DNA of 64,000 nt. It comes from Xiphias gladius (lineage: Eukaryota; Chordata; Actinopteri; Istiophoriformes; Xiphiidae). Below are positions 821 through 55,900 of the stretch, piece by piece. Numbering within the stretch: the stretch's first letter is position 1; each line of letters starts with the position of its first letter. The stretch covers positions 6,951,001 to 7,015,000 of the forward strand of contig NC_053411.1 in NCBI RefSeq assembly GCF_016859285.1, written 5' to 3'. The translations under genes were made by a program, and so were the position numbers. The notes below the pieces were generated by a model. That model searched no databases. It saw only the letters and a program-made list of their open reading frames with translations, and had not been told where the DNA came from.

Positions 821-2783
821 ATGCCTGCTCAACCCCCTGTGAGGGAGCCAGAGGAGGAGATGGAGGCAGAAGGAGAGTCACAACTCCCTGAGGCCAACGG
901 GGAGCTGGTGGAACCAAGAGCAAATGAAGGAAGAGGAGGCGGAGGTGGAGAGGAAACCATGGAGGAGAGCATGGAAGAGAGGGAGAGTGACTTAGAAGAG
1001 AGTGAAGAGGAGGAGGAGGAAGAGGAAGAAGAGGAGAGTTCAGGTAAAAACCCAAGTGCTCTGCTGACTTGCCACCTGCTTGTATGAAAGTATGCAAGAG
1101 GAGATGAAGAGACTGCCTGTATCACAGTTTTTCATTGTCTGTGTCCATCTCTCTGTCCCCTGCGAAGAGATGGATGATGAAGACTGTGAACGGAGGAGAG
1201 GAGAATGTCTCGATGAGATGTTGGATCTGGAAAAACAATTTCAGGAGCTGAAAGAGAAGTAAGTTGAGTTGTGGAGGGGGTCGGACGGACTCCTCACTCC
1301 GGTGTGATTTGAGGTCATCTCCGTTGTGTGAAGGATGGAAGAAGAAAGGAGGAGAGACTGACTTCAGCATGTGTTTGCAGGTTGTTTCGGGAGCGGCTGA
1401 ACCAGGTGAAAGTGAAGCTGGATGAGGTGTTGACAGGGAAGGCTGGAGAATACAGAGAACCACTGGCTGCACTACAGAATAGCATGCAGATACGAACACA
1501 AGTGGCTGGTATGTAAAACCGGTTTTCTTGAAGGTGGCAAAATCCACCTGCCAGCACGTCTCTAGCTCACTACTTAACACATTTTTTCTCATTTTGTTTA
1601 ATCCGAACAAAGTGTAAAAACCCAGAGTTTTGGTTTTACAGGGGTGTTATGTGCTGAAGTATTTCTTGTCAGAGGCAGTTAATGTTCAAATGTTATGTTA
1701 AAAATGTGAAATTGTAGGGAAGTAACAACGTATTCTGTGTATAACATGCACAAGTACTTATCATATCTGAGAGAGGCTTAATATAATTATCTAAATTTAA
1801 AATGAATTACAGTGAAATGATAACCTAGTGATGTCCAAAATAATTAACACAGCATAACAAATGTGGTAAAATATACAAAATTATTTTTTTATCACATCTA
1901 GCTTCTGTCAGCAAAATGTCATAAAAATGAACAAGATCAACAAAATGCCTGAAGGCTGTGACATAAGGATTGTAAATGAAATCCAGATCAGATGTGTGAT
2001 TTAGTGTTTATGGTGCGTAAAAGCAATAAGTCAGCTCTCCTCGATAGAATAGTAACACACGGCTGCAGCTCACCTCCCGTCTGTGTCCCCTGATGCTCCT
2101 AACGCTTTAAGTGGCTACAAACAAGGATGGTGTCGTGAAGTCACGAAGCGATATTAGGCCAAGCTCGGTCCTCTGTCTTGGTATAAATGAGTAATTTGCT
2201 TTCTAGCCAGTAACACAGTCTCACTGCAAATAAAAGCGCAAATAATTTTCATTCGTTTATGTAAGTTTTCCCCAAAGTATCTCGTGTGGGCTGTCAACCG
2301 TTGATCGTTATCTAGACCTCTGCGCAACCTAAAGGCTGGAGATGTAGTCCCTGATTATATTTCACTGAAATGATGGGTCAAATAAATACATTATTACTCT
2401 AAAGTTGCTGTATACAGAGAATCGAATGCTAGGTGTGCCGGTGAGTTTAATTCAGTCAGCGCACACCTAGCATTTGCCTGGTCTTTGAAAAGGCTGGAAC
2501 TTGTCCATACCAGCATGGTCATTTTGCAACAGAGTGAAATTACCAGTAGTTGTAGTGAATGATTAGGTTGTATGGTGTCACTGTCTGTTTCTGTCTGGTT
2601 CTGACAATAACTAAGGACCTGGGAATCTAAAAATACCCGCGGTGGCGTCTGTCTGTCTTTCACATTCTCTCTCTCTGTCTCCCTGTCTTTACCTACAGGA
2701 GTGTACAGAGAACTGTGTCTGCAGGTCATCAAACACAAACATGAGTGTGAATTACAAGGAGCAAGGCAGCACCTAGAGGTAAT

Positions 2784-2817
<34 letters not shown>

Positions 2818-2999
2818 TACTGTATACCACAAAGGGACACTAGAAAAAAATTATTAGAAAACTAAAACTCTGCATGTACGTGTGCATATGTGTGTTACAG
2901 AGTGAGAAGACGTTGCTGTTTGATGCCATGAAGACAGAGCTGCTGGAAAAGATAAGGAGACTGGAGGAGGACAGACAGAATATAGATCTCAACTCAGGT

Positions 3000-3031
<32 letters not shown>

Positions 3032-3924
3032 GGATATCATTCGGCAGTCGTTTTCAGGAAAAAATATATTAACATTTCCTCCCTTTGTCCTTATAGCCCA
3101 TTGTCAGAAGAGATAAACCTGCATGTAAATACTGACACATGTCGTGTAATGACTGTGGTATTTTCTTATCTCAGAGTGGAGTGATGAGATGAGGAGCAAG
3201 AAGTGTAAAAGAAAGAACCTGCTGGGTCGGTCGGAGAGAAAAAAGAAAGTAGCTCTGGTTTCAGGTAAATTATAATCTGCCCACCTCATCATCCCTCGCT
3301 GACCTTTCTTCACATTTTAACTGTTAGATGTCCATACGAGTCTGCCTTGTTGGGCAAGCTTGTCTTTTTCCAGCTGTCGCTCTGTGTATGTTTGAAATGT
3401 GCTGTAGTTTCTCTCTGTGTTTTTTTTTATTCTGCCACATATCTCACAAGTTATGGCGAGGATTTTGCTGGTAACAGACCAACAGATTCGTTGATAAGAC
3501 CCCCTTTTCTGTCTCACAGGACCTTTCATTGTCTACATGCTGAGAGACATCGACATCCTTGAAGACTGGACCGCTATAAAGAAAGTAATAAATCAGTAGC
3601 TACGTTTCCATTTCAGTTCCCAAATTTCTCAGCTGTTCAGAACACTAAAATGTCGTTTCAGTGTGTTTACATCAACTAAATTGAACTGATCAGGCTCTGT
3701 ACTGAGATTTATTTTGATCATTTGTCATCTTTTAAAACTTTCCTTGGTTACCGACGTTTTGGCAACTTTGTCTTTGTGTGCTTTTCAGGCAAAAGCAGCA
3801 CTGTCGCCACTAAAAAAGAAAGCTGAAAGTAAGTCTACCTCTGGCATACACATAGAGTATAAGCATACCATGCTGTGGCGGTTCCGTCTCTAACCCATCA
3901 TCAGTTTGTCTTTCAGAGCGGTGA
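821..3924 (+). CDS. brms1: Breast cancer metastasis suppressor 1 homolog (BRMS1), Sds3-like corepressor subunit
   Basis: Nine coding exons read in frame: 821-1043, 1168-1258, 1381-1508, 2699-2778, 2901-2997, 3175-3264, 3520-3584, 3789-3828, 3917-3924. All introns are GT-AG and the phases agree, giving about 273 residues (human BRMS1 about 246). The protein starts MPAQPP and has an acidic Glu-rich N-terminus with a Glu run near residues 60-72. The family core follows: [30 protein letters not shown], then coiled-coil segments and [20 protein letters not shown] near the C-terminus, all matching BRMS1. BRMS1 proteins belong to the Sds3 family and act in the nucleus in SIN3-HDAC corepressor complexes. 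The last exon adds only two residues and the stop codon. The start is the first ATG after the acceptor at 817-818 and matches the known N-terminus. AATAAA at 4112-4117 is the likely polyadenylation signal. Confidence 0.95.
1529..1676. repeat. Fragment of a dispersed teleost repeat in a brms1 intron
   Basis: This stretch of intron 3 aligns by eye with 60396-60540 and with 59960-60010. Shared blocks include AAAATCC, CCAGCAC, AGCTCA, TAACACATT, TTATGTG and TATTTCTTG. It is therefore one copy of an interspersed, probably non-autonomous element. I recall this sequence type as frequent in percomorph genomes but cannot give its class with certainty. Confidence 0.6.
2785..2815. repeat. (CA)n microsatellite
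   Basis: Uninterrupted CA dinucleotides just after the brms1 exon 4 donor. A second CA tract (3001-3027) begins directly at the exon 5 donor (GTACACAC), so that splice site is part of the repeat. Confidence 0.95.
3001..3027. repeat. (CA)n microsatellite at the brms1 exon 5 donor
   Basis: CA dinucleotides that start three bases after the end of brms1 exon 5. The donor GTACAC runs straight into the repeat. Confidence 0.95.
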
Positions 3925-35846: not shown

Positions 35847-38800
35847 CTATGGGTCCTGTGCCTGTGTGTGTGTAGATGTGTGAGTGTGTGTGGGCGAGGA
35901 GTGCCTGTCGACCAACATCTCAGCGTGTTTCAGATACTGGGCAGTCCTCCTCATCACAGACTCCCTGCGTACTGGATCTGGGTCACCTGGACAGAAAGAG
36001 ACACATAGACAGGAAGACAAAGATGATTATTTTCATTATTATTGTCCAGAAATGGCACTAGTGTCCCTTCTGCTGCTGCTCCCGTGGAGGGATAGAGAGG
36101 ACATTGAGAGCAGAGAAGCAAAGGTAGAAAAAGAAGAAAAAAAGCAAAGAGCATGTCAAAGGCTTCCCTAAACCCAATGCAATGTAGTTTCTTTAACAAA
36201 TTAAAAAGCACTGCTAAAAAAGGTTAATAGAATTCATAGAATTATCAAGATTAACAGAATTTTAGACATTTCATCAATCTATGTTGTCACTTAAATTGTC
36301 ATTGTTATTTCCTATTAATCATAGCTGGTGCATTTATGTTTAATCTTAACTGAGCAATGTTACTAAAGAAAAAATCTCTTCAATCAACTCAAAAACCCTT
36401 CTTGAATTATGTGCTTTACCTTCAAGTAGTAGTAAATGTAGTGACTGAAATTACTCACTTGAGAGCAAACAGCGGGACTCTCAGACCAGACTTAGTTCCT
36501 TTAACTCCAATTTTAAGTTTTAAATTACCAGAAAGCAAACATAAGGAGGATAGACTTCCTGGCAGCGGTGGGATTTGAACCCACGCCCCCAAAGAGACTG
36601 GAGCCTTAATCCAGCGCCTTAGACCGCTCGGCCACGCTACCACACAACACCAGTACAAAAATACCGGTGAACGTACGGTCAACTCTGACCCCACTGAGGA
36701 CATACCTGAACAGGGTAAAAAATAAGAATAAAAAACAGAGCGGGGAAAGCACAAAGTAACCATAGAGAAAATATTAGAGTGCTGTTACATAGTAGCAGAT
36801 GACACACATGCAGACTAAGTTTTTTTTTTTTGATGGCATCTTAAATGCCAGTTACTGTCACAACTTGATATATGCACATAAACTGCTTGTACTGTTTATC
36901 TGTTTGTGCCGTATGTGGGACAAATATATTTTTACAAGCCCCATCCAATATTAGTTCTCAGATAAGTAATAGTTCCTTATGACTCACAGCTCATTTCTAA
37001 ATGTTATTTTACTTATTCCATAAGAATAATTCATTGAGTTTAAAATTACATTCAACTTTATCTTCCACTTTTAATGTAATCTATTATTATATGAATATAA
37101 AATGACTTATTACTATTAAAATAAGTTGGGAATCTAGTGCTGGGATTTAGTTTGAATTATTCAACTGCAATCTAAAATTTAGAGCTGGAATAAAAACAAA
37201 CAACCTATCTTCCTTTATAGATTAAAATTTTAATTTTAATGATGAAATTAAATGAATGTAATAGTTCTCAGATATGTATGAAACGGAAAACAAGGTGAGG
37301 TGTTTCTTTTGTCAAGATGACGTAAAACTGTCTCCTTCAGCTCTATACTGTACCATTCTTCGCTTTTCTGAGTTTAAGAGAGAATAATCTCATTGGCAGT
37401 GGTGGGATTTGAACCCACGCCTCCAGAGAGACTGGAGCCTAAATCCAGCGCCTTAGACCACTCGGCCACACTACCAGGTGGAGGACTCAGCTCAGTCTAA
37501 CCTTTACCAAACGTAATAATAATCACTAGTATACCTAAGACTGGAAGGGAAAAAAATAATCTGATAATGCACTACTCATAAAATCTGCTCTATGTTTTCT
37601 TGATAAACATATTTATATCAGTTAATTAAAGTAAGCATTTTGTCTTGATATCTGCACATAGAGTGCTGTTCTGTCTATGTCTATTTAAGTCGCCTCTTAT
37701 GGCACCTTTTAGATCTTGTGACAAAAAAAGGCCATTAAAAAGCCTCGTTGTCAGCTTATGTGGTTCTGGTGTCAGCTTGTGATAATGTGTACAAGCCCTA
37801 TGCAGCATCCAATTTCATGGGTGAAACGTTTTCCCACTAGCTCTTGAAGCTTTCACTTTGGAGGGCAACCTCAAACAGAATATGACTCTAACTCTAATGT
37901 GCCTTTCTGATTAGAAGTCACTGTTTAGCAAAATTCATGCATAATTTGGGTAAGGGAAATTCTCTGGCAGTGATGGAATCTCATATGAGCTTAGAAAAAA
38001 ACAAAACATTGGCAGCGGTGGGATTCGAACCCACGCCCCCGAAGAGACTGGAGCCTTAATCCAGCGCCTTAGACCGCTCGGCCACGCTACCCTGTGTCAG
38101 AACAATCCCATAGTCGTTTCAAAAACGCTTAGCTTCGCACTTCGTATTCATCTTCGCTGCCTTTGCATGGTGGGTGTTATGTTTGGCAAATTTTAAGAAA
38201 GACGCTGGAGTCTTAACCCAGCACCTTAGACCACTCGGCCACACTATGAATACACAGAACACAATAAGAAGATATTAGAGTAGACTGACCTAGTAAGTCA
38301 TCATAAGATGATACAACAGATTTTTATGGCACAGCAACATGTAGTTTCTTTGATGAGTATTATGGAAACATACATTACTCTATTATTGCTGAACTGAATA
38401 CTTTACCACATCCCGTCCTCTCTCCTTCTTTCTCCCCCCTTTTCCACCAACCCATGTTTCTCAATCCCTCATCTTCTCACCCTGCACTCCAGTGATCAAT
38501 ATGTCCACCGCTGTCCTGTATCCACAAATGGCAGAACTAAATTCTCCCTCTTTCTCCCTCTCCATAGCAGCTGTTAGCTCAGTGGCTGCTTGGTTCAGAT
38601 AACCCATGTCCCCTCCATCTAGACTGGTTGGCGGCAGTGAGAACAACTCTGAGTGGTCACTGGAGGCACTGGATGTTTCTGAAATAGAAAAGGAAGGAAC
38701 AAGAGAAAATTTTTAAAGATAAAGAAATAAAGACACTGAAAATGCTGCCCAAAGGCTATATATAGCTCTACAGTCCAAATAAAATTGAGGAAAATCTTAA

Positions 38801-41800
38801 TTGGGCACATTCTTTCATTTATTTTACCATTGTAACTATCATTAACCATTAATCAATGAGAGAAATACAGCACATTTTACATTAATTTCAGAGTTTTCTC
38901 CATTGTATATTGATAGCTTGATTCAAACCCACGCCCCCAAATAGACTAGAGCCTTAAGCCAGCATTGTAAACCACTCGGCAACACTACCCCACGACAATA
39001 TTGTTGCAAAAACGCTTAGCTTCAAGACTTCAGATTCATCTTCGCTGCCTTTGCATGGTGGGTGTTATGTTTGGCAAATTTTAAGAAAGACGCTGGAGTC
39101 TTAACCCAGCACCTTAGACCACTCGGCCACACTATGAATACACAGAACACAATAAGAAGATATTAGAGTAGACTGACCTAGTAAGTCATCATAAGATGAT
39201 ACAACAGATTTTTATGGCACAGCAACATGTAGTTTCTTTGATGAGTATTATGGAAACATACATTACTCTATTATTGCTGAACTGAATACTTTACCACATC
39301 CCGTCCTCTCTCCTTCTTTCTCCCCCCTTTTCCACCAACCCATGTTTCTCAATCCCTCATCTTCTCACCCTGCACTCCAGTGATCAATATGTCCACCGCT
39401 GTCCTGTATCCACAAATGGCAGAACTAAATTCTCCCTCTTTCTCCCTCTCCATAGCAGCTGTTAGCTCAGTGGCTGCTTGGTTCAGATAACCCATGTCCC
39501 CTCCATCTAGACTGGTTGGCGGCAGTGAGAACAACTCTGAGTGGTCACTGGAGGCACTGGATGTTTCTGAAATAGAAAAGGAAGGAACAAGAGAAAATTT
39601 TTAAAGATAAAGAAATAAAGACACTGAAAATGCTGCCCAAAGGCTATATATAGCTCTACAGTCCAAATAAAATTGAGGAAAATCTTAATTGGGCACATTC
39701 TTTCATTTATTTTACCATTGTAACTATCATTAACCATTAATCAATGAGAGAAATACAGCACATTTTACATTAATTTCAGAGTTTTCTCCATTGTATATTG
39801 ATAGCTTGATTCAAACCCACGCCCCCAAATAGACTAGAGCCTTAAGCCAGCATTGTAAACCACTCGGCAACACTACCCCACGACAATATTGTTGCAAAAA
39901 CGCTTAGCTTCGTACTTCTACTGGCTGCCTTTGCATGGTGGCTGTTCAATTAAGAAACTGAAGAAGTATTTTGGTAGAGAGGCAAAATGTCTTCAAAAGT
40001 GTAGAGAAAGACTTTGGACTGTTTGGCCAAGCTATCGATACACAGAATACACAACATGCTATTTGACATTCTTTTCCACAGTTTAAGATGAAGCACAGTC
40101 TGCTTTAGAACTTCCTGGCAGTGGTGGGATTTGAACCCACGCCTCCGAAGAGACTGGAGCCTTAATCCAGCGCCTTAGACCGCTCGGCCACACTACCCTA
40201 TACCATTGTTACCACGCTATCAGCTTTTCTTGGTCAGCTTTAGACACACCTGCTAGTTTGATCAGTGCTTAACTTTACATATTTATTGATAGTGTATATA
40301 CAGTGGTTGTTTGATATCATAGAAGCGTCAGTGATTAACTTAAATGTTTAATTTGATCCAGACTGCAAGTTATCTTGTTTGAACAGCTGATGAAAAACTT
40401 ACTATTTTAAATGCTTGTTATTTTTCCACATTACTCATTTATTAAACTCCAGGAATGGACATTAGTTACATCAGCAAATTATACAGTATGTTATTACTAC
40501 AGTCCAATCAGGAAGGATAATATGACATTTGCATATCACATTTACACTCCCCCAGGAACTTTGGCAGGAAGGTCTGTAAACAAATATTCAACATATGAAA
40601 TTATTACTTGGAATAAGAAAATCAAAAGCAAAATTTACAGAATCTGAACAAGACATAAATTTCCAGAAAAAAATCACCAAAGACTGAAAAAACAGATTGT
40701 AATTAGATGAAGAGAGAGATTTGAGATGACTGAAAGCAATGGTATTGGTTTATATGTATTCATTCACCTTTATTTTCACCTTGTTTAGAGCAGGGATCAA
40801 AGACAGCCAAGTCAATATCAGACAGTGGAGGTGGACCTCCTTCCTTTGGGGATGGGGCATGCTCTTCTGCCACAGAGTCAAACAGTGAATCAAACTCTTC
40901 CTGGGACTCTTGTGATTGGTGGTTTCTAGCTGGGGATGGGTCAGGAGACAGGACTGGAGGTGAAACATGGACCAAAAGGTAAGAGCAAGGATAGGAATGA
41001 AACAGAGCCAAAGAAAAGGAAATAACAGACCTTGATTAATTCTGGCAGATTTTTTCCCACCGCGTACCTCTGTCATCCAGCTCTGTATCACTGAGCCTCT
41101 CTCTTTCTTCTTCTCTTGGAGAGCCTCCCATCTCACTGTAAGCCTCAGCCGCCACCTCAGGTTCTCCCACGTCTAAGCCCAGGTTGGTGCCCAGGTCCTG
41201 GGGTAAGGTGGGAGCCTCCCTTCCCTCCTCCTCTTCTGCGGGCTCACAGTCTGAGGCCCTCCGCTTGGGGAGGGGGATGAGAGGGGGAGGCAGAGGCCCA
41301 GCAGAGGACAGAGGGGTTGGGTCTAGAGGTCTTGTGACCTCGCCACCCTGAGAGAAGGGAGGGAGAAAGAAAGATGCAACGAGAACAGAGGGGGGGAAGG
41401 GACAAGCAGAGACAAAGTCAGGAGTCCAATAACATTACACATGTTTTTTGTGTGCAGATATCCATGGCTACTACATCTCAGTTTCACTTCTCGTATGTGT
41501 GTGCGAGTGCATCTTACTCTGAAGAAGTCCTTGAGTTGTGGGCTATTGTAGAGTGCGGGTATGCTGGTAGTAAACAAAAGCATGGCTTCTGCTGCCTTCC
41601 TCCGATCCTCAATCACAGCCTGATCAAACCTTCCTACAGAAATACATCATATAGGAACAAATTTAATGACAATTCAGATGATGGTGCTAAAAAATTACGG
41701 GAAAAATTAAGGAGACAAAAAGCAGAAATGTAAGCCAGACTGGTTTTGTGTGGATACTTTCAGGTGTGTTTGTTAAAAAAGGTTGGTCATTGTTTTAAGG

Positions 41801-43193
41801 CTGTAGCTTACCCTTGTGCATTCAACCTATCCAGCAAGACAGCAACTATATGTTGCCTTAAAAACTCAATGTAAATTGTGACTGTCCATTAGTATTGACA
41901 GTTTGTCTGTAACCACTGAAGAATAACATCATCGACCGAAGGGAAATGTCACAAGTAACATTACAAAACGTTAAAAAAAGGCACAATGGAACAAGTATAT
42001 CCCAACTAGAAAATGACTCAAAGACACTCAACCGTATGATTGCATGAAAAAGCAACAAGCAATGGCCTCAAATATGATAACTGAGCTGAATTACCATCTT
42101 TGACACTGTAAAACCTTCTGTAGTTCATTATGATTTATTTCTCTTATTTATCTAGCCCCTGCAGCACACCAAACAACTCAGTTAGTTGGTGACCTTAGCA
42201 CTTGGCGACCATGCCGGAATTGCGTGTACGTAGAGTGCATCACAATCTTTGCATCATTTTACCAAAAACTTGTGCACGGGGAAAAGGTGGAAACTCCTCC
42301 TGTCTTCTGAACAAGTTCCTGTGAGTGTAGGCCAACTCCCCGTGGAGCTTCTTCAGCTCTGAGAACCTCCTCCACACGAGCACCTCCTTCACATCTTCTG
42401 GATGACGCTTGGACACAAACTACAAACCACATAGGAGAGGAGGAGAGATTATTTCAGTAACTCCATGTTTAACATTAAGCCTCAGACCAGCTTTTTTTCA
42501 CACTGGCAAAGAGCAAAGGACAGCATGTTGAAATTATGAACGATTGTATATATTGAAATAGATGAACCGGACAGAGAGGTAAGATAGGCAGATCAGTGTG
42601 CAACAAATATATGATGTTCTTTGATTTTGTATGCATGCCTGACTAGACCACGGGGCATTAGTGTGGTCATGGGGTCAGTGCTGGAGCTCATGAAATGAAT
42701 CACAAGTTCTCTCTGTTTCACTTGAGTGCTCACTGTGCACCACTGCCTCAAATAAAAGGCCCATTGTGTATAACTCTACCCGTCTGAGCTAGCACCAGGG
42801 CCTTTGTGTCATAAAAACACAAAGGCCCTGGTTATCACAATGTGATTTCATTGTGTCATAAGGGAATAATAATACAAAGTCACTCACTTTTCATTGATGT
42901 AACTGACCAAAGAGTGTAGTGCAACATAAGGAACAAATTGTTTTTTTCAGGTAGTTACGAGAAGTAACAAACATGTACAGAAGTAACAACATTTCACTCA
43001 TGTAGGCTGACCATGAATAAAAAACAGCATAACAGCAAAAAAGGTTTCTATTGTTGACGTTGTAGCTAAAGAGAGATAAAGAGTGTAAACCAACCCTTGC
43101 TGTCACTTTGTACTCCGTGTGTCCCTTCTCGTGAGTGCGTGGGTCGGTAACGGTAAAGAACCGGTAATATTCCTCCTTGGGTTTTCGTGACAT
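35847..43193 (-). CDS. snx15: Sorting nexin 15 (PX and MIT domains), with a duplicated MIT exon
   Basis: Minus-strand exons: 43095-43193, 42263-42419, 41518-41633, 41068-41347, 40780-40953, MIT exon copies 39369-39566 and 38481-38678, and 35847-35986. Phases match throughout: about 387 residues with one MIT exon, 453 with both (human SNX15 342). The PX domain, which binds endosomal phosphoinositides, spans exons 1-3 (YYRFFTVTDPRTHEKGHTEY, KEVLVWRRFSELKKLHGELA, HRNLFRRQEEFPPFPRAQVF, IPALYNSPQLKDFF). The acidic linker has LSDIDLAVFDPCSKQ, matching the human LTEAELALFDPF. The MIT exon has YLNQAATELTAAMEREKEGE and GYRTAVDILITGVQG. The last exon has VMRRTAQYLKHAEMLVDRH. SNX15 acts in endosomal trafficking. 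The C-terminal tail is translated from a CA repeat. tRNA-Leu genes lie in the introns on the same strand. Minus-strand AATAAA (plus 35248-35253) probably ends the transcript. Confidence 0.93.
36560..36641 (-). tRNA. tRNA-Leu (AAG)
   Basis: 82-nt class II tRNA on the minus strand, starting GGTAGCGTGGCCGAGCGGTC. The anticodon arm CTGGATTAAGGCTCCAG places AAG in the loop. It ends in CACCGCTGCCA, which pairs with the acceptor start. The T loop reads TTCAAAT rather than TTCGAAT, a small B-box change seen also in two other members of this cluster. It lies in the last snx15 intron. Confidence 0.95.
37394..37475 (-). tRNA. tRNA-Leu (TAG)
   Basis: 82-nt class II tRNA on the minus strand, starting GGTAGTGTGGCCGAGTGGTC. 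The anticodon arm CTGGATTTAGGCTCCAG gives TAG. It ends in CACCACTGCCA, complementary to the acceptor start. The T loop is TTCAAAT. It sits in the last snx15 intron, between two tRNA-Leu(AAG) genes. Confidence 0.95.
38010..38091 (-). tRNA. tRNA-Leu (AAG)
   Basis: 82-nt class II tRNA on the minus strand with the canonical T loop TTCGAAT, anticodon AAG and acceptor GGTAGCG paired with CGCTGCC. It is the most canonical member of the cluster. Its right flank (CAAAAACGCTTAGCTTC at 38120-38136) recurs next to every relic in the repeat array to its right, so it resembles the founder of that array. Confidence 0.96.
38201..38247 (-). pseudogene. tRNA-Leu fragment
   Basis: On the minus strand ATAGTGTGGCCGAGTGGTC followed by a D arm and an anticodon arm with AAG; the variable arm, T arm and 3' acceptor strand are missing. 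The identical fragment lies in the second duplicate at 39089-39135. Confidence 0.85.
38481..38678 (-). CDS. snx15: snx15 MIT exon, downstream copy
   Basis: A 198-bp exon that starts and ends in phase 1, so it can be included once, twice or skipped without changing frame. It encodes ETSSASSDHSELFSLPPTSL, then the first part of the MIT helix bundle (YLNQAATELTAAMEREKEGE, GYRTAVDILITGVQ). The acceptor is CTATTTCAG and the donor GTGAGA. It is identical to the copy at 39369-39566. MIT domains bind C-terminal helices of ESCRT-III-type proteins. Confidence 0.9.
38911..38989 (-). pseudogene. Degraded tRNA-Leu
   Basis: On the minus strand a full-length but decayed tRNA-Leu: GGTAGTGTTGCCGAGTGGTT, an anticodon arm with mismatches (CTGGCTTAAGGCTCTAG) and T arm GTGGGTTTGAATC, with the 3' acceptor strand lost. 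The second copy lies at 39799-39877. Confidence 0.85.
39089..39135 (-). pseudogene. tRNA-Leu fragment, second copy
   Basis: Identical to 38201-38247 and part of the duplicated block. Confidence 0.85.
39369..39566 (-). CDS. snx15: snx15 MIT exon, upstream copy
   Basis: Identical to the exon at 38481-38678 with the same splice sites. In transcript order it follows the exon at 40780-40953, whose last base G joins AA to make Glu. Joining this copy to the next also creates Glu, so a protein with two tandem MIT segments would stay in frame. Confidence 0.88.
39799..39877 (-). pseudogene. Degraded tRNA-Leu, second copy
   Basis: Identical to 38911-38989 and part of the duplicated block. Confidence 0.85.
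40116..40197 (-). tRNA. tRNA-Leu (AAG)
   Basis: 82-nt class II tRNA on the minus strand with anticodon AAG, but with the acceptor stem GGTAGTG/CACTGCC that the TAG isoacceptor at 37394 has. All stems pair and the T loop is TTCAAAT. The mixture suggests gene conversion or an anticodon change within the cluster. It lies in the snx15 intron before the MIT exons. Confidence 0.95.
42794..42832. repeat. Perfect 16-bp inverted repeat in snx15 intron 1
   Basis: Arms ACCAGGGCCTTTGTGT and ACACAAAGGCCCTGGT flank a 7-nt loop (CATAAAA). The RNA would form a stable hairpin, but the stem is too short for a typical microRNA precursor. Confidence 0.8.
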
Positions 43194-49978: not shown

Positions 49979-51205
49979 GTAATTTTTCATTTACTTCACC
50001 GAGTTTTCTTCCATAAAACTTGTCTAAGTGTGAGCTGAAGAACGGGAGGGAGGCGGCAGTGTTGTTACAAGGCCTCGTGGCTCGATTTCATCATCTGCGA
50101 AGGAAGATAAATGACACTGTATCCAACATTTCAAACCGCTCGAAAGTTTCCTACTTATTTCCACCACTGGGACTTATTTGACAAAACGAGTGGGATCGAT
50201 ATTCGAATTTACGAGATTTCGTTTTATTAACTATTACTATTTTAAACGTAATTGAAGAACCGGGACAAACCAGCCAGCAAAGAATAGAACTCCCGTACAA
50301 CAAAAAAACAGAACTCATTTGGTGTATATGCAAAACAGTTGTGCCTTAACTACTAAAATGTTATAGTCACTGTTATTAATGTTAGAGTACACACGAATTT
50401 TCTTTCATGTTAGGCTCTGTTATTGATATATTCTGTATTTTTTTTAATCAAAAACACACAGCTCAATACAAAAAACAAAACAAAAACAAATACAGAAGGA
50501 ATTAACGTGTCAAATGTGGTATGTGTGAGGGATTTACTTATTGCAACAAGGGATAGAAATTGTAGTTAACGATTAGCTAACAATCCACTCTTATTTTGAA
50601 GGTTACATTGTTTCCGTTGACAGAGCTGTTTCTAGCTGAATTTATCCTGTAACGTATAGCTACTCTTTCATCAGACAACTGTTGAACGCATCCCCAGCAC
50701 TACTGCACCTTTTTGGAGAGTTGTCTGTCCAGTGTTATTCTTGTTGCAGCAACAGATGATAAAAATACGAAGCGTGGTTTAAGTAGGTAACGTCTCTTTT
50801 CCAGCAGGTTATTCCCCCCCCCCTAAGCTATTTGTCTGTTACTTGCGCGAAAAGCTGAGCTAACAGAGGCTGTTAGGCTAACGTTAGCTAGAATTCATCA
50901 CTGACGAACGCGTTAACTGGCAACAACCCTTTCATTTCTGCCTCTAGTAACTAGCTAACTAGTCAGTTTTATGAGGCTAGCACTTGTTTTCACGTCTCAA
51001 CTATGAGGTACTGTAAATAAAAGGAATCCGTGTGGTGGGTCTCAGAAATTATTGAACATATGTTTGGTTAAGTACAATTTACCAGTGACACAAGACAGGG
51101 CCAACACCTTTTCGGTCAATTAACTTGACAATCTGTTATTTCTCTGTTTCTCCTACTGTTGCCCGCCCCTCTGTGCCCCCATCTCTAAAGAAAGCCGATT
51201 TAACC

Positions 51206-54200
51206 ATGAATAAGGACACCGAGATAGACATGAAGGAAGTGGAGCTCAATGAACTGGATCCCGAGAAGCAGCCCATGACAGGTGATGGCCAGGCGGCAGG
51301 CGGAGAAAAAAATGGCAGCGTCAAGCTGAAGGTCCCAGAGGACGAGGTTACATTCACCGGCTTGTCAAAAGAGGAGCTGATGAAGGTCGCTGGCACTCCC
51401 GGGTAAGAGCTACTGGGCAACAGTTGCTATAAATACTTTGTAAATTCTGATCTTTTATTTGCATGTGGAAAAAAATAAATGGTTATCTTACCACCCCCCC
51501 CCACACTCTCATCCTTTTCTGTAGATGGGTGCGAACCCGTTGGGTGCTTCTTGTCCTGTTTTGGCTGGGCTGGCTAGGCATGCTGGCTGGAGCAATTGTA
51601 ATCATAGTCCAGGCCCCTCGCTGCAAACCCATCCCTGAGATGAACTGGTGGAATGAAGGACCTCTGTACCAGATCTCTGACCTCGTGGCTTTCGCTAACG
51701 GAATGGCAGGTAGAGAATCTTACGATTTCAAATAAATATGTATTTTTCATTGTAAATATACAGTGTTTTTTTTTATGCCACGCAGAATTTTTTATATTAA
51801 AGTTGATGCCCTTTCTTGCTGCAGTTTGCATGTTCTTGTTTGCTCATTGTGCCATCCTTATTCAAATAATTTAGAGATTATTTACGAAGTGCTCTAGTCT
51901 TGATGTGCTAACCCGCTCTAATTCACGTGGGATAAGTCTTGTGAGAATGTCTTGGGTTTCCTAAGTTCTGCATGGCTTACGTCAGCTGGCCAGATACCAA
52001 ACTGCTGACTAGGCTGACACTGAGTGACTCAAGGTCTAAAGGACATAAAAACCCACAAGTCATTTCTTTCATATCTCTCCTACTCAGATTTGAGGTTATG
52101 GTTGAGCAACCAGGTACTTTTTTTTTTTTTTTTTTTTTTTTTAAGTGCTGTGCAGATTTGACTTTTTAGATCTCTTTTAGACTTCATTTCAGATCCCAAT
52201 GATGAAACTATTCTTGTTCTGAACAAAGCTTAAAAGCCAGGAAAAAGTTATGAGCTTTCATTTTCCAATTTTGATTTTTAACCACATAAGTGTTTTTAAA
52301 GAGGCAGGAAGGAAGGACAGATTTTGGCTACTGTTCTTAAAGTGAATCACTCAGTAGCGCTCGGTTTTCCAACGAGCCTTGAGTAGAATTCCAAGAACCA
52401 CACGTGACTCTGTTTTCACATAAAGACATCCTTGTACACAGACTTCACATGGCCAGCAGATGGTGTGGAGGGAGCCATTCACATGCTCCTGCCTTAAGTC
52501 TATACTAGCTATAAGAACAGCAGTATTTACCCTTAACTTTTCTATTTTGTTTTTACTTTGCATTCTCTCTTGTCTTCTAGCCTTCTGCCCTCTTCCCCTA
52601 ATCTTCTGACTCTGCTACCTTTCACACATCAGCGCTCTGTTGTCCAATGTGAAATTCACACTGACGCGACATTACATTCTCCCTCCCTGTCCCTCTATCT
52701 GTCTGTAGGTGTTGAGGCAAAGTTGGACGATATGAACCAGTTGAAAGTGAAAGGTCTGGTTCTCGGCCCTCTTCACACCGTCCAGGCTGATATGCAAAAC
52801 ACCCTGGATCTTCAGGCAATTGACCCAGTCCAGGGAAATGAGAAAGAACTGATTACCCTGCTGGAAAAGGCCCACAAAAAAGGTTAGATGATCATTATGA
52901 ATCACGAATGTTGGGCTCATTCATAGTCAATAGTAATAGCTTATGTTTGCAAGTTTTACATGGATTTGGACTGCTCAAGTCCAGGTGTTGTAAGCAAACT
53001 TATGCTTTTTGTTTTTCTCAGGCATTTCTGTGGTGCTTGACCTGACTCCAAACTACCTTGGCGGTGCTGCCTGGTTCAGCACTGGCGATACTGGTGATGT
53101 GATAGAGAAAGTCATGGTAGGACACACACGCTATGGTCTGGGATCCCTCATTCACTGAATCCATGACACTGAACGGTTCTTGCTTCTGAAGTTAAAGTGC
53201 TCGTGTTCTCTTCCAGGCTGCAGCACAGCACTGGCTGGGTTTGGGTGTTGACGGCATCAAGATATCTGACTTCACCGTTGCCTCCAACTCCCCTGAATGG
53301 TCAAAATTGCAGGCTGTTGTCCAGGGCAACCGCACTGAGGGCACCAAGAAGAGGTAACTATGCCAACCACTTTCTGACTTCCTTCTGTTCATCATTAGTA
53401 GACAGTCTATGTAGGAACACGCAATATTTAATTTGCAAGACTTTCCAAGTAATTTTCAAATCATCGGTAAAATGTCAGGTGACAGGGTTGTTTTTTGAGT
53501 AAGCTTGGAGATTAAATGCATTCCAGTGCTACAGGGGACTGTGGGTGGGGGTCAAAGAGAGCTGGATCAACAAGAGAGGCATCCGCAGGCCAGTTGTGCT
53601 CTACACACTCATGTTAAAGCAACAACTTGTGGAGGATTTGAGGAATGACAAATTTGACTTTTAAAATCAGATTCCACCATTCAAGGAGGCATTTCAAGAT
53701 GCTAAATTCTAGGCTTTTCTTAAAACAAGTTAGGATATAACTCAAAATTTTCTACTTTCAACTGACTGAAACCGAAGCCGACCATTGGCCCCCGTGCTCG
53801 GTTGCTCTGTAAGGTGACTAATTTGACCCTGTTCTTCTTCCCTCAGGGCCTTGATGGGTGTAGTTGAAGAGATTTCGCCTGCGGAGGTGTCTCAGCTTGT
53901 CAATACCTCTGGTGTAGATCTCATCCTGTCTGACCTGCTCAGCAGCAAAAATGGAGGTTGGTTCGAGTTTTCTTTTTGTTTGGCCATACTTGAACCTATA
54001 TCAAGTGTGTATCTTCTCCAATTTTTGGCTGGTTTTGGTTATTTGGAACAAAATATTGCAATAGTTTGGATAGATTATTTATTCATTTAAATATTTCCTT
54101 CATTTCTCTTTATTTACATTTAATCACCCATCATCGTCCTCATCATCATTTTTTTGTGTGTGTGAAAACCAACCAGTTGTTGTAAAATGGTACATCGCAG

Positions 54201-55221
54201 GTGATTATTATACCTGAATATCTGCAGGTGTGGAGCGCATCAAGGCCATGGACACTCTACACTCTCAGCAGAGAAGTCTGGGCTGGGGTCTAGGTGCCAC
54301 CAAATGGGACCAGCTGTCTAATATAGCGAAAACTCCGTCCCTGATCCGTCTCTACCAGCTCCTGTTGTTCACCATGCCTGGAACCCCAGTGTTTACCTAT
54401 GGAGACGAGATTGGCCTTCGGGCAGCAACAGTAAGCAATAAAACAGACCAGATAAGTTCAAATTTTTTAACAACCTTACAGGTGTCACAGAGTGTAACCT
54501 TTGTTTTTTCCCCTTTGTTTCTTTATCAGGGTGAAAAATCTCCTCAGATGGTTTGGGATATAGAGAAGGAACCCGCTGAAGAAGAAGTGGTTTATCTGGC
54601 TGCTGAGGTAAGATTGTGTTTTCATTGAATGTCAGTGTGGAAAAGGAGACCTTTAGCAAACTAGTTAGCGCATGATCAAAAACATTAATTTGCTTTCAGT
54701 GTTTTTAAAAAAAATGTCCTCAATTCTCACATTTACAGGCTGAGCGGAAGGAACGCGTTGCTCTAAGGAAGTGGTTCAAATCCCTCAGCGACCTGCGAGG
54801 CAAAGAGCGATCTCTCCTCCACGGCGACTACTACCCTCTCTACTCCTCTAACTCCTCCCTCTCTTTCCTCCGTCTGTGGGACCAGAGCGAGAGATATATA
54901 ACGGCTGTTAACTGGGGAGGAGAACCTGAGACACTCACACTCTCACTAGCACCTACAGGCAAGTTTGAATTCAACAGTAAGATACATTGGCGGTAGTTAG
55001 TCATTGTGTCTATGTTTTTTGTATTTGTTTTGTTTTTCTGTTTTTACACCGTGATATTTGTTCCTGCAGAGGGAGTAGAGCTGCCAAAGACAGCCAAGGT
55101 GAAGCTGTCAGCTGGCATAAACTCCACAGCAGACGCCACAGTAGACTCCACGGTCAGCCTGGACAAAATCACTCTAGGACCCGGACAAGCCATCTTGCTG
55201 CAGTTCCCCTATACAGGCTAA
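51206..55221 (+). CDS. slc3a2: 4F2 cell-surface antigen heavy chain (CD98hc)
   Basis: Ten exons: 51206-51402, 51525-51709, 52709-52882, 53022-53116, 53217-53353, 53847-53956, 54228-54430, 54530-54607, 54739-54958, 55070-55221, about 516 residues. The cytoplasmic N-terminus has EIDMKEVELNELDPEKQPM and FTGLSKEELMKVAG, nearly identical to human SLC3A2. A single membrane anchor (about residues 73-94) follows WVRTRW. Then comes QAPRCKPIP, whose Cys (about residue 99) corresponds to the one disulfide-linked to SLC7 light chains. The ectodomain is a glycosidase-like fold: VKGLVLGPLH, VVLDLTPNY, LYQLLLFTMPGTPVFTYGDE, ERSLLHGDY, and ends ILLQFPYTG. CD98hc carries LAT1-type amino-acid transporters to the plasma membrane and binds integrins. 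Intron 9 uses a GC donor (GCAAGT at 54959). AATAAA occurs at 55296-55301 and 55875-55880. Confidence 0.97.
52118..52142. repeat. Poly(T) tract
   Basis: About 25 consecutive T in slc3a2 intron 2. Confidence 0.95.
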
Positions 55222-55900
55222 AGATGGCACCAAACTGTCAGAAAGCTACCTACTGATTAGCCTTCTTAAAAGATATGAAAGTCCTAATCCTTAGGAATAA
55301 AATGGCATATACAAAAGAAACAGGATATTTCTCTTTACCATAATAAGTCAGACTTTCTATCAGTTTATTTCGTAAGAACGTACACAAATTGGGTCAAAGA
55401 AAATCTGCCATACAATTGCAGAATGTTGACAAGTATAAACTCTTGGATTTTTAGTGGGGTTTTATAAAGTTAAGTTTTTTTCTTTTTTTCTTTTTTTTTT
55501 TTTTTAATGTGCTAGGAAAAGATACAGCCACCTCAGCCATGCACTCATCAATTGACCATTTTGTACCCTTTTATTGTTGATTATCTGTACATTATCCAGA
55601 TGTGTGAAAGACATTCCATTCTTCTTCTTTGGGCATTTCTTTAGCAGTCCTTCTGAGTTTTTTATACATTTTTAAGAGATTCTGTTTTTGTGACAGTTTT
55701 ACTTTCTTTGTGGATTTTATTATTTTTTTTTCCTCAGTGGAAGATGCATAGTATAAACAAGTTAACTTAACTTTGAGCATGTGTGGTGACTTAGTTTGAA
55801 GCATTTTAAGAGTGCTGGTAAACAAAACTGTAGGAAATGGCTTCAAGTCTGTCAAGTGAACTGAATTGGAAATGAATAAACAGAAAGTTCTGTGCCAACC
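55222..55900 (+). other. slc3a2: slc3a2 3' UTR
   Basis: AT-rich sequence after the TAA stop, with two AATAAA signals (55296-55301 and 55875-55880). The second has a GT-rich element downstream (TGTGCATTCATGTTTTTGTG) and is the likelier main end. Confidence 0.6.

Follow-up and report, generated by a model that had tools for sequence, protein, structure and literature searches.

What does an exact second copy of an exon, lying beside the first, mean for the gene that holds it? We consider this question for a 64,000-nucleotide stretch of the Xiphias gladius genome, referred to here as the window, in which two identical blocks each contain one exon of the sorting nexin gene snx15. The answer depends on whether the repeat exists in the animal, on how it arose, and on what the exon encodes.

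The repeat is perfect. The first-pass annotation described two 878-bp blocks, identical at an offset of 888 bp, and a direct comparison of the letters bears this out, with agreement at 878 of 878 bases:

38146..39023, no strand: copy 1 of the exact 878-bp repeat, on the genomic left.
39034..39911, no strand: copy 2 of the exact 878-bp repeat, on the genomic right and upstream in the snx15 transcript.

This pair is all that a megablast comparison of the window with itself returns (word size 28, matches of at least 100 bp); there the alignment extends to 1046 bp at 95.8% identity, because the tRNA-like flanks align as well. The genome searched comprises 690,834,319 bases in 1298 contigs, and repeat counts from it are at-least values. 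Full-length matches to the unit account for two of the 17 listed, both at this locus. The other 15, of 40–80 bases, correspond to two tRNA-like segments within the unit (query positions 53–101 and 774–852), and no third full copy is found among the matches listed. Near-identical tandem repeats of 150 bp or more are absent from all 20 of the 10-kb stretches sampled from this genome (200 kb in total: five stretches on contig C12, two of them adjoining the window, and 15 on other contigs). The repeat is genuine in the sequence as given and unusual relative to this 200-kb sample. One of the 20 stretches holds a satellite of 80–82% identity; it follows a 500-N gap (L047, positions 2558–3057), the sole gap in the 200 kb.

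The blocks lie within a gene whose coding exons are on the minus strand and whose introns are all GT–AG. In this model, exon borders were placed by hand from reading frame and splice consensus, and it covers coding exons only:

43095..43193, minus strand: snx15 exon 1, coding part from the ATG.
42263..42419, minus strand: snx15 exon 2 (PX).
41518..41633, minus strand: snx15 exon 3 (end of PX).
41068..41347, minus strand: snx15 exon 4.
40780..40929, minus strand: snx15 exon 5, phase 1-1, acceptor picked by frame.
39369..39566, minus strand: snx15 exon 6a, identical copy of 6b, first in transcript order.
38481..38678, minus strand: snx15 exon 6b, 198 bp, phase 1-1, MIT helices 1-2, approximately positions 1–39 of the 66 in the Pfam MIT profile.
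35847..35986, minus strand: snx15 last exon (exon 7), MIT helix 3, C-terminus and stop.

The name snx15, given from the letters alone, holds: residues 1–126 of the predicted protein match PDB 6ecm, Sorting nexin-15, with an E-value of 2.9e-60. Both the PX part and a C-terminal MIT domain (PF04212, residues 295–358, 42.9 bits against a cut-off of 30) exceed their Pfam cut-offs. Searching the genome with the protein, with the best 27 candidates scored, lists 12 matches, eight of which are the exons in the window (six single exons and the two copies). The remainder are three weak PX matches on contig C4 (44–54% identity) and one weak match on contig C9. No second snx15 gene is seen among these 12, and snx15 looks single-copy from this search. 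The PX matches on C4 adjoin two MIT matches, so that contig probably carries another PX–MIT gene, perhaps one such as RPS6KC1. Beside snx15, at 51089–55256 on the plus strand, open frames resemble in translation a gene for a 4F2 heavy chain (slc3a2).

Each block contains one 198-bp exon of phase 1 at both ends, with the same acceptor (ctatttcag|AAACAT) and the same donor (TGCAGG|gtgaga); the two exons are 690 bp apart. The first-pass annotation had read the exons in just this way, as having functional-looking splice sites and as being joinable in frame singly or together, and the gene model agrees. With one exon 6 the predicted protein has 379 residues, and with both it has 445, the additional 66 being in frame. 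Skipping both copies also preserves the frame. As in other tandem exon duplications, these are homologous neighboring exons in one gene on the same strand, and their phase is compatible with splicing either or both into the mRNA. If the copies served as redundant mutually exclusive exons, another possibility raised in the first-pass annotation, the choice between them would alter no protein, since they are identical. With equal splice signals 690 bp apart, the default mRNA would therefore be expected to include both exons, while mRNAs with a single exon would give the ordinary 379-residue protein. A decayed third copy of the exon was also sought in the window, using blastn with the exon and its splice sites and tblastn with the exon peptide, and none was seen; the best other blastn match is 24 bp at 52673 (E 0.16), and the next tblastn match spans nine residues (E 1.8).

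What would a second exon 6 add? The first-pass annotation called it a complete MIT exon, and here its description is in error. The open frame of exon 6 scores 26.5 bits against the Pfam MIT profile, below the cut-off of 30, and reaches only positions 1–42 of 66, the last three residues of this match being intron translation. By contrast, the MIT match in the spliced single-exon form covers profile positions 1–64. From the exon lengths, exon 6 ends at residue 333; if the match is taken as ungapped, exon 6 would supply about positions 1–39 of the profile, leaving the remainder to exon 7. AlphaFold2, given the 66 exon residues with no alignment, yields a low-confidence model (mean pLDDT 63) in which a disordered start is followed by helices at 24–43 and 49–63. 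Judged from these predictions, the exon holds MIT helices 1 and 2 only, and helix 3 is in the next exon, 35847–35986, which is present once. Pfam coverage and this separate helix 3 exon together rule out a complete MIT domain in each exon. The tandem form scores 68 bits, with one match to positions 1–64 and one further stretch, so on paper a partial second MIT-like segment appears real. With a single helix 3 exon, the gene does not encode two complete three-helix MIT domains of the CAPN7, LIP5, or ULK3 type.

A division of the MIT domain between exons may be common. A genome search lists 23 MIT matches (E up to 10), of which 14 form seven pairs split near the boundary between helices 2 and 3. 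In each pair, the first match ends at profile position 39–46 and the second starts at 34–42, from 95 to 660 bp further on. The pairs lie on contigs C8, C6, C14 (twice), C4, C10, and C16, and are defined by match ends rather than by gene models. Several of the second-half matches are weak (E up to 0.7), and one first half on C14 contains stops. The other matches are the two snx15 exon copies and seven unpaired ones, one of which, on C7, runs unbroken from profile position 2 to 58; the snx15 helix 3 exon itself is absent from the list of 23. The recurrence of the split suggests that the break between helices 2 and 3 is an old intron position.

The missing helix matters for what the tandem form could bind. 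A survey of MIT domains in human proteins describes seven binding types, of which six use the groove between helices 2 and 3 or that between helices 1 and 3, while the remaining one encircles the domain almost completely (PMC9477494). Human SNX15 binds IST1 through two elements; both contribute, and the authors infer that both grooves are filled (PMC9477494). The default mRNA would be expected to give a 445-residue SNX15 in which one complete MIT domain is preceded by an extra helix 1–2 hairpin, together with a repeated linker of ~27 residues. Lacking its own helix 3, this hairpin would lack both grooves, and because the described binding types need the grooves of helix 3 or the whole domain, a doubling of the canonical sites is not expected. 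The proposal that tandem MIT segments could double the ESCRT-III sites is thus not upheld: the exon encodes helices 1 and 2, and joint inclusion would yield one complete MIT domain and, as far as the predicted protein indicates, no new canonical ESCRT-III site. We infer that the effect is neutral or mildly disruptive.

Might the tandem form nevertheless be functional? The extra linker and hairpin could add a property of another kind, for instance a short linear motif now present twice, or an exchange of helix 3 between hairpins that leads to dimers. The reading frame and splice sites are intact, and tandem MIT arrangements are known in LIP5, CAPN7, and ULK3 (PMC9477494). However, those proteins have two MIT domains each, while the first copy here would lack helix 3, and identical copies carry no trace of selection. 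We regard a functional tandem form as very improbable. The accessible portions of the SNX15 and clathrin literature, including PMC8280035, report no motif in the repeated linker. A fuller scenario is about as improbable: the duplication is genuine and has reached fixation, snx15 mRNA mostly contains both exons, and the hairpin of the 445-residue protein competes for or exchanges helix 3, altering SNX15 oligomerization or the holding of IST1. This would be a case of young domain remodeling seeded by tRNA gene repeats, and we give it little credence.

The sequences at the edges of the repeat indicate how it may have formed. Four tRNA-Leu genes, called by ARAGORN and Rfam, lie in two snx15 introns (36559–40197) on the same strand as the gene. 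Three have the anticodon AAG and one TAG, and several tRNA-Leu-like relics occur besides. The relevant features are the following:

36559..36642, minus strand: tRNA-Leu (AAG), intron between exons 6b and 7.
37393..37476, minus strand: tRNA-Leu (TAG), intron between exons 6b and 7.
38010..38091, minus strand: tRNA-Leu (AAG), intron between exons 6b and 7, adjoining R1.
40116..40197, minus strand: tRNA-Leu (AAG), intron between exons 5 and 6a.
38894..38990, minus strand: tRNA-Leu-like relic in copy 1, 64% identical to the reference unit, with no ARAGORN call and no Rfam call at E 0.1.
39782..39878, minus strand: tRNA-Leu-like relic in copy 2, the same relic as in copy 1.
38116..38143, no strand: left parental repeat R1, beside the tRNA-Leu at 38010–38091.
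39891..39918, no strand: right parental repeat R2, beside a tRNA-Leu-like relic.
39024..39033, no strand: 10-bp junction between the copies.

R1 and R2 have 93% identity across 28 nt and share a perfect core of 17 bp. Both ends of the repeat lie in these diverged direct repeats next to tRNA-Leu units, which indicates an origin by unequal recombination or by template switching. Before the event, R1 and R2 would have stood ~887 bp apart, one on each side of a single exon 6, and would have misaligned. A single extra copy of the exon, with its flanks, would then have resulted from unequal recombination or from template switching during replication, with a small patch of error-prone synthesis. If R1 and R2 paired unequally, the junction should be R2-like on its left and R1-like on its right, and the alignment of R1, junction, and R2 has this form (mean column identity 80%, a value inflated because the junction copies both). 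A clean crossover fits less well. At five of its 10 aligned positions the junction agrees with neither parental flank, and a 17-bp perfect core is short for efficient homologous recombination. No donor of the junction bases emerged from a genome search with a 111-bp junction query, which matched only itself and the two parents, and 12-mers drawn from the 17 bases around the junction do not recur within the window.

These five foreign bases bear on the age of the duplication. Were five changes scattered evenly along the 888-bp unit, all would land in the 10 junction bases with a probability of ~2e-10; therefore, the differences at the junction are not the product of changes accumulating evenly since a single recent copying. 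Probably they were made in the event itself by an error-prone patch, or else were left unlevelled by gene conversion. Under the latter account, the duplication is older and has been held identical by conversion, which reaches the junction poorly and left it to diverge. The same ~2e-10 speaks for this account, but conversion would need to have erased every difference across the 878 bp, in introns as well and as far as each edge, and the surrounding tRNA-like units, which are 64–88% like their reference copy, have not been levelled. Given that an error-prone patch is also the simpler explanation of the junction, we consider conversion improbable. For a recent duplication, zero differences in 878 bp give an upper bound on divergence, and a bound only, of 0.34% at 95%. 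With the average mutation rate for fish of 5.97e-9 per site per generation (PMC9995274), this corresponds to an age under roughly 285,000 generations, assuming that the fish average applies, that sites are neutral, and that there has been no conversion.

A repeat this perfect could also be an error of assembly, in which a single copy in the animal was written twice by the assembler as a homotype false duplication. The lack of any difference over 878 bp is what such an error would produce; false duplications are widespread, with a homotype class that carries no haplotype differences (PMC9516828); and tRNA-like repeats nearby may hinder assembly. The marks of false duplication are gaps between the paired copies (a primary mark), lowered depth, and discordant reads, although in some false pairs a stretch that no reads support takes the place of the gap (PMC9516828). 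The window contains no N, and therefore no gap between or beside the copies, although the assembly does have 500-N gaps, one of them in the 200 kb sampled. The heterotype mark, differences between haplotypes, is likewise absent (0 of 878 bases). The junction includes bases foreign to both flanks and sits inside homologous repeats, as a biological junction would. No further copy appears among the assembly matches listed, where a removed haplotype would be invisible. We judge an artefact unlikely, but to be taken seriously. The three causes listed in the first-pass annotation (recent duplication, conversion, or artefact) are the right ones to weigh, and we favor, with moderate confidence, the first: a phase-symmetric snx15 exon was truly duplicated, head to tail, and recently. 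The duplicate exon may be unfixed in the species.

A genuine duplication of this kind belongs to a known type of event, tandem exon duplication, in a probably recent instance. Two studies of animal tandem exon duplications likewise describe single, internal, phase-symmetric coding exons copied head to tail within a gene (PMC9013439, PMC9741552). More than 90% of annotated human cases have bony fish orthologues, and the human events are therefore old (PMC9013439). In contrast to these, the snx15 copies are identical, and a choice between them changes nothing. If both exons are included, snx15 resembles CAPN7, LIP5, and ULK3 (PMC9477494) in having more than one MIT-derived segment per protein, but the tandem form would have one complete three-helix MIT domain plus helices 1 and 2 only. 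Assembly false duplications can also place identical copies covering an exon side by side (PMC9516828), whereas the snx15 copies have no gap between or near them, and their junction contains bases found in neither flank. If the duplication is real, it is a very young tandem exon duplication caught before divergence, with the probable causative repeats still in place, and the initial splicing of two identical exons could be tested before any mechanism of exclusion evolves. As a single locus it is a modest case, and it shows chiefly that an exon is not a domain.

Among intragenic duplications, those reported for PAFAH1B1, DMD, and PALB2 are likewise small head-to-tail copies within a gene. Their ends reportedly lie in short homologous stretches, as they do in snx15. 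Unlike in those genes, the homologous stretches in snx15 adjoin tRNA-Leu genes and relics. Elsewhere in the genome, at ~24.585 Mb on contig C23, a separate array contains three tRNA-Leu genes spaced exactly 316 bp apart (positions 831–1544 of L006, the same as 1463–2176 of L008).
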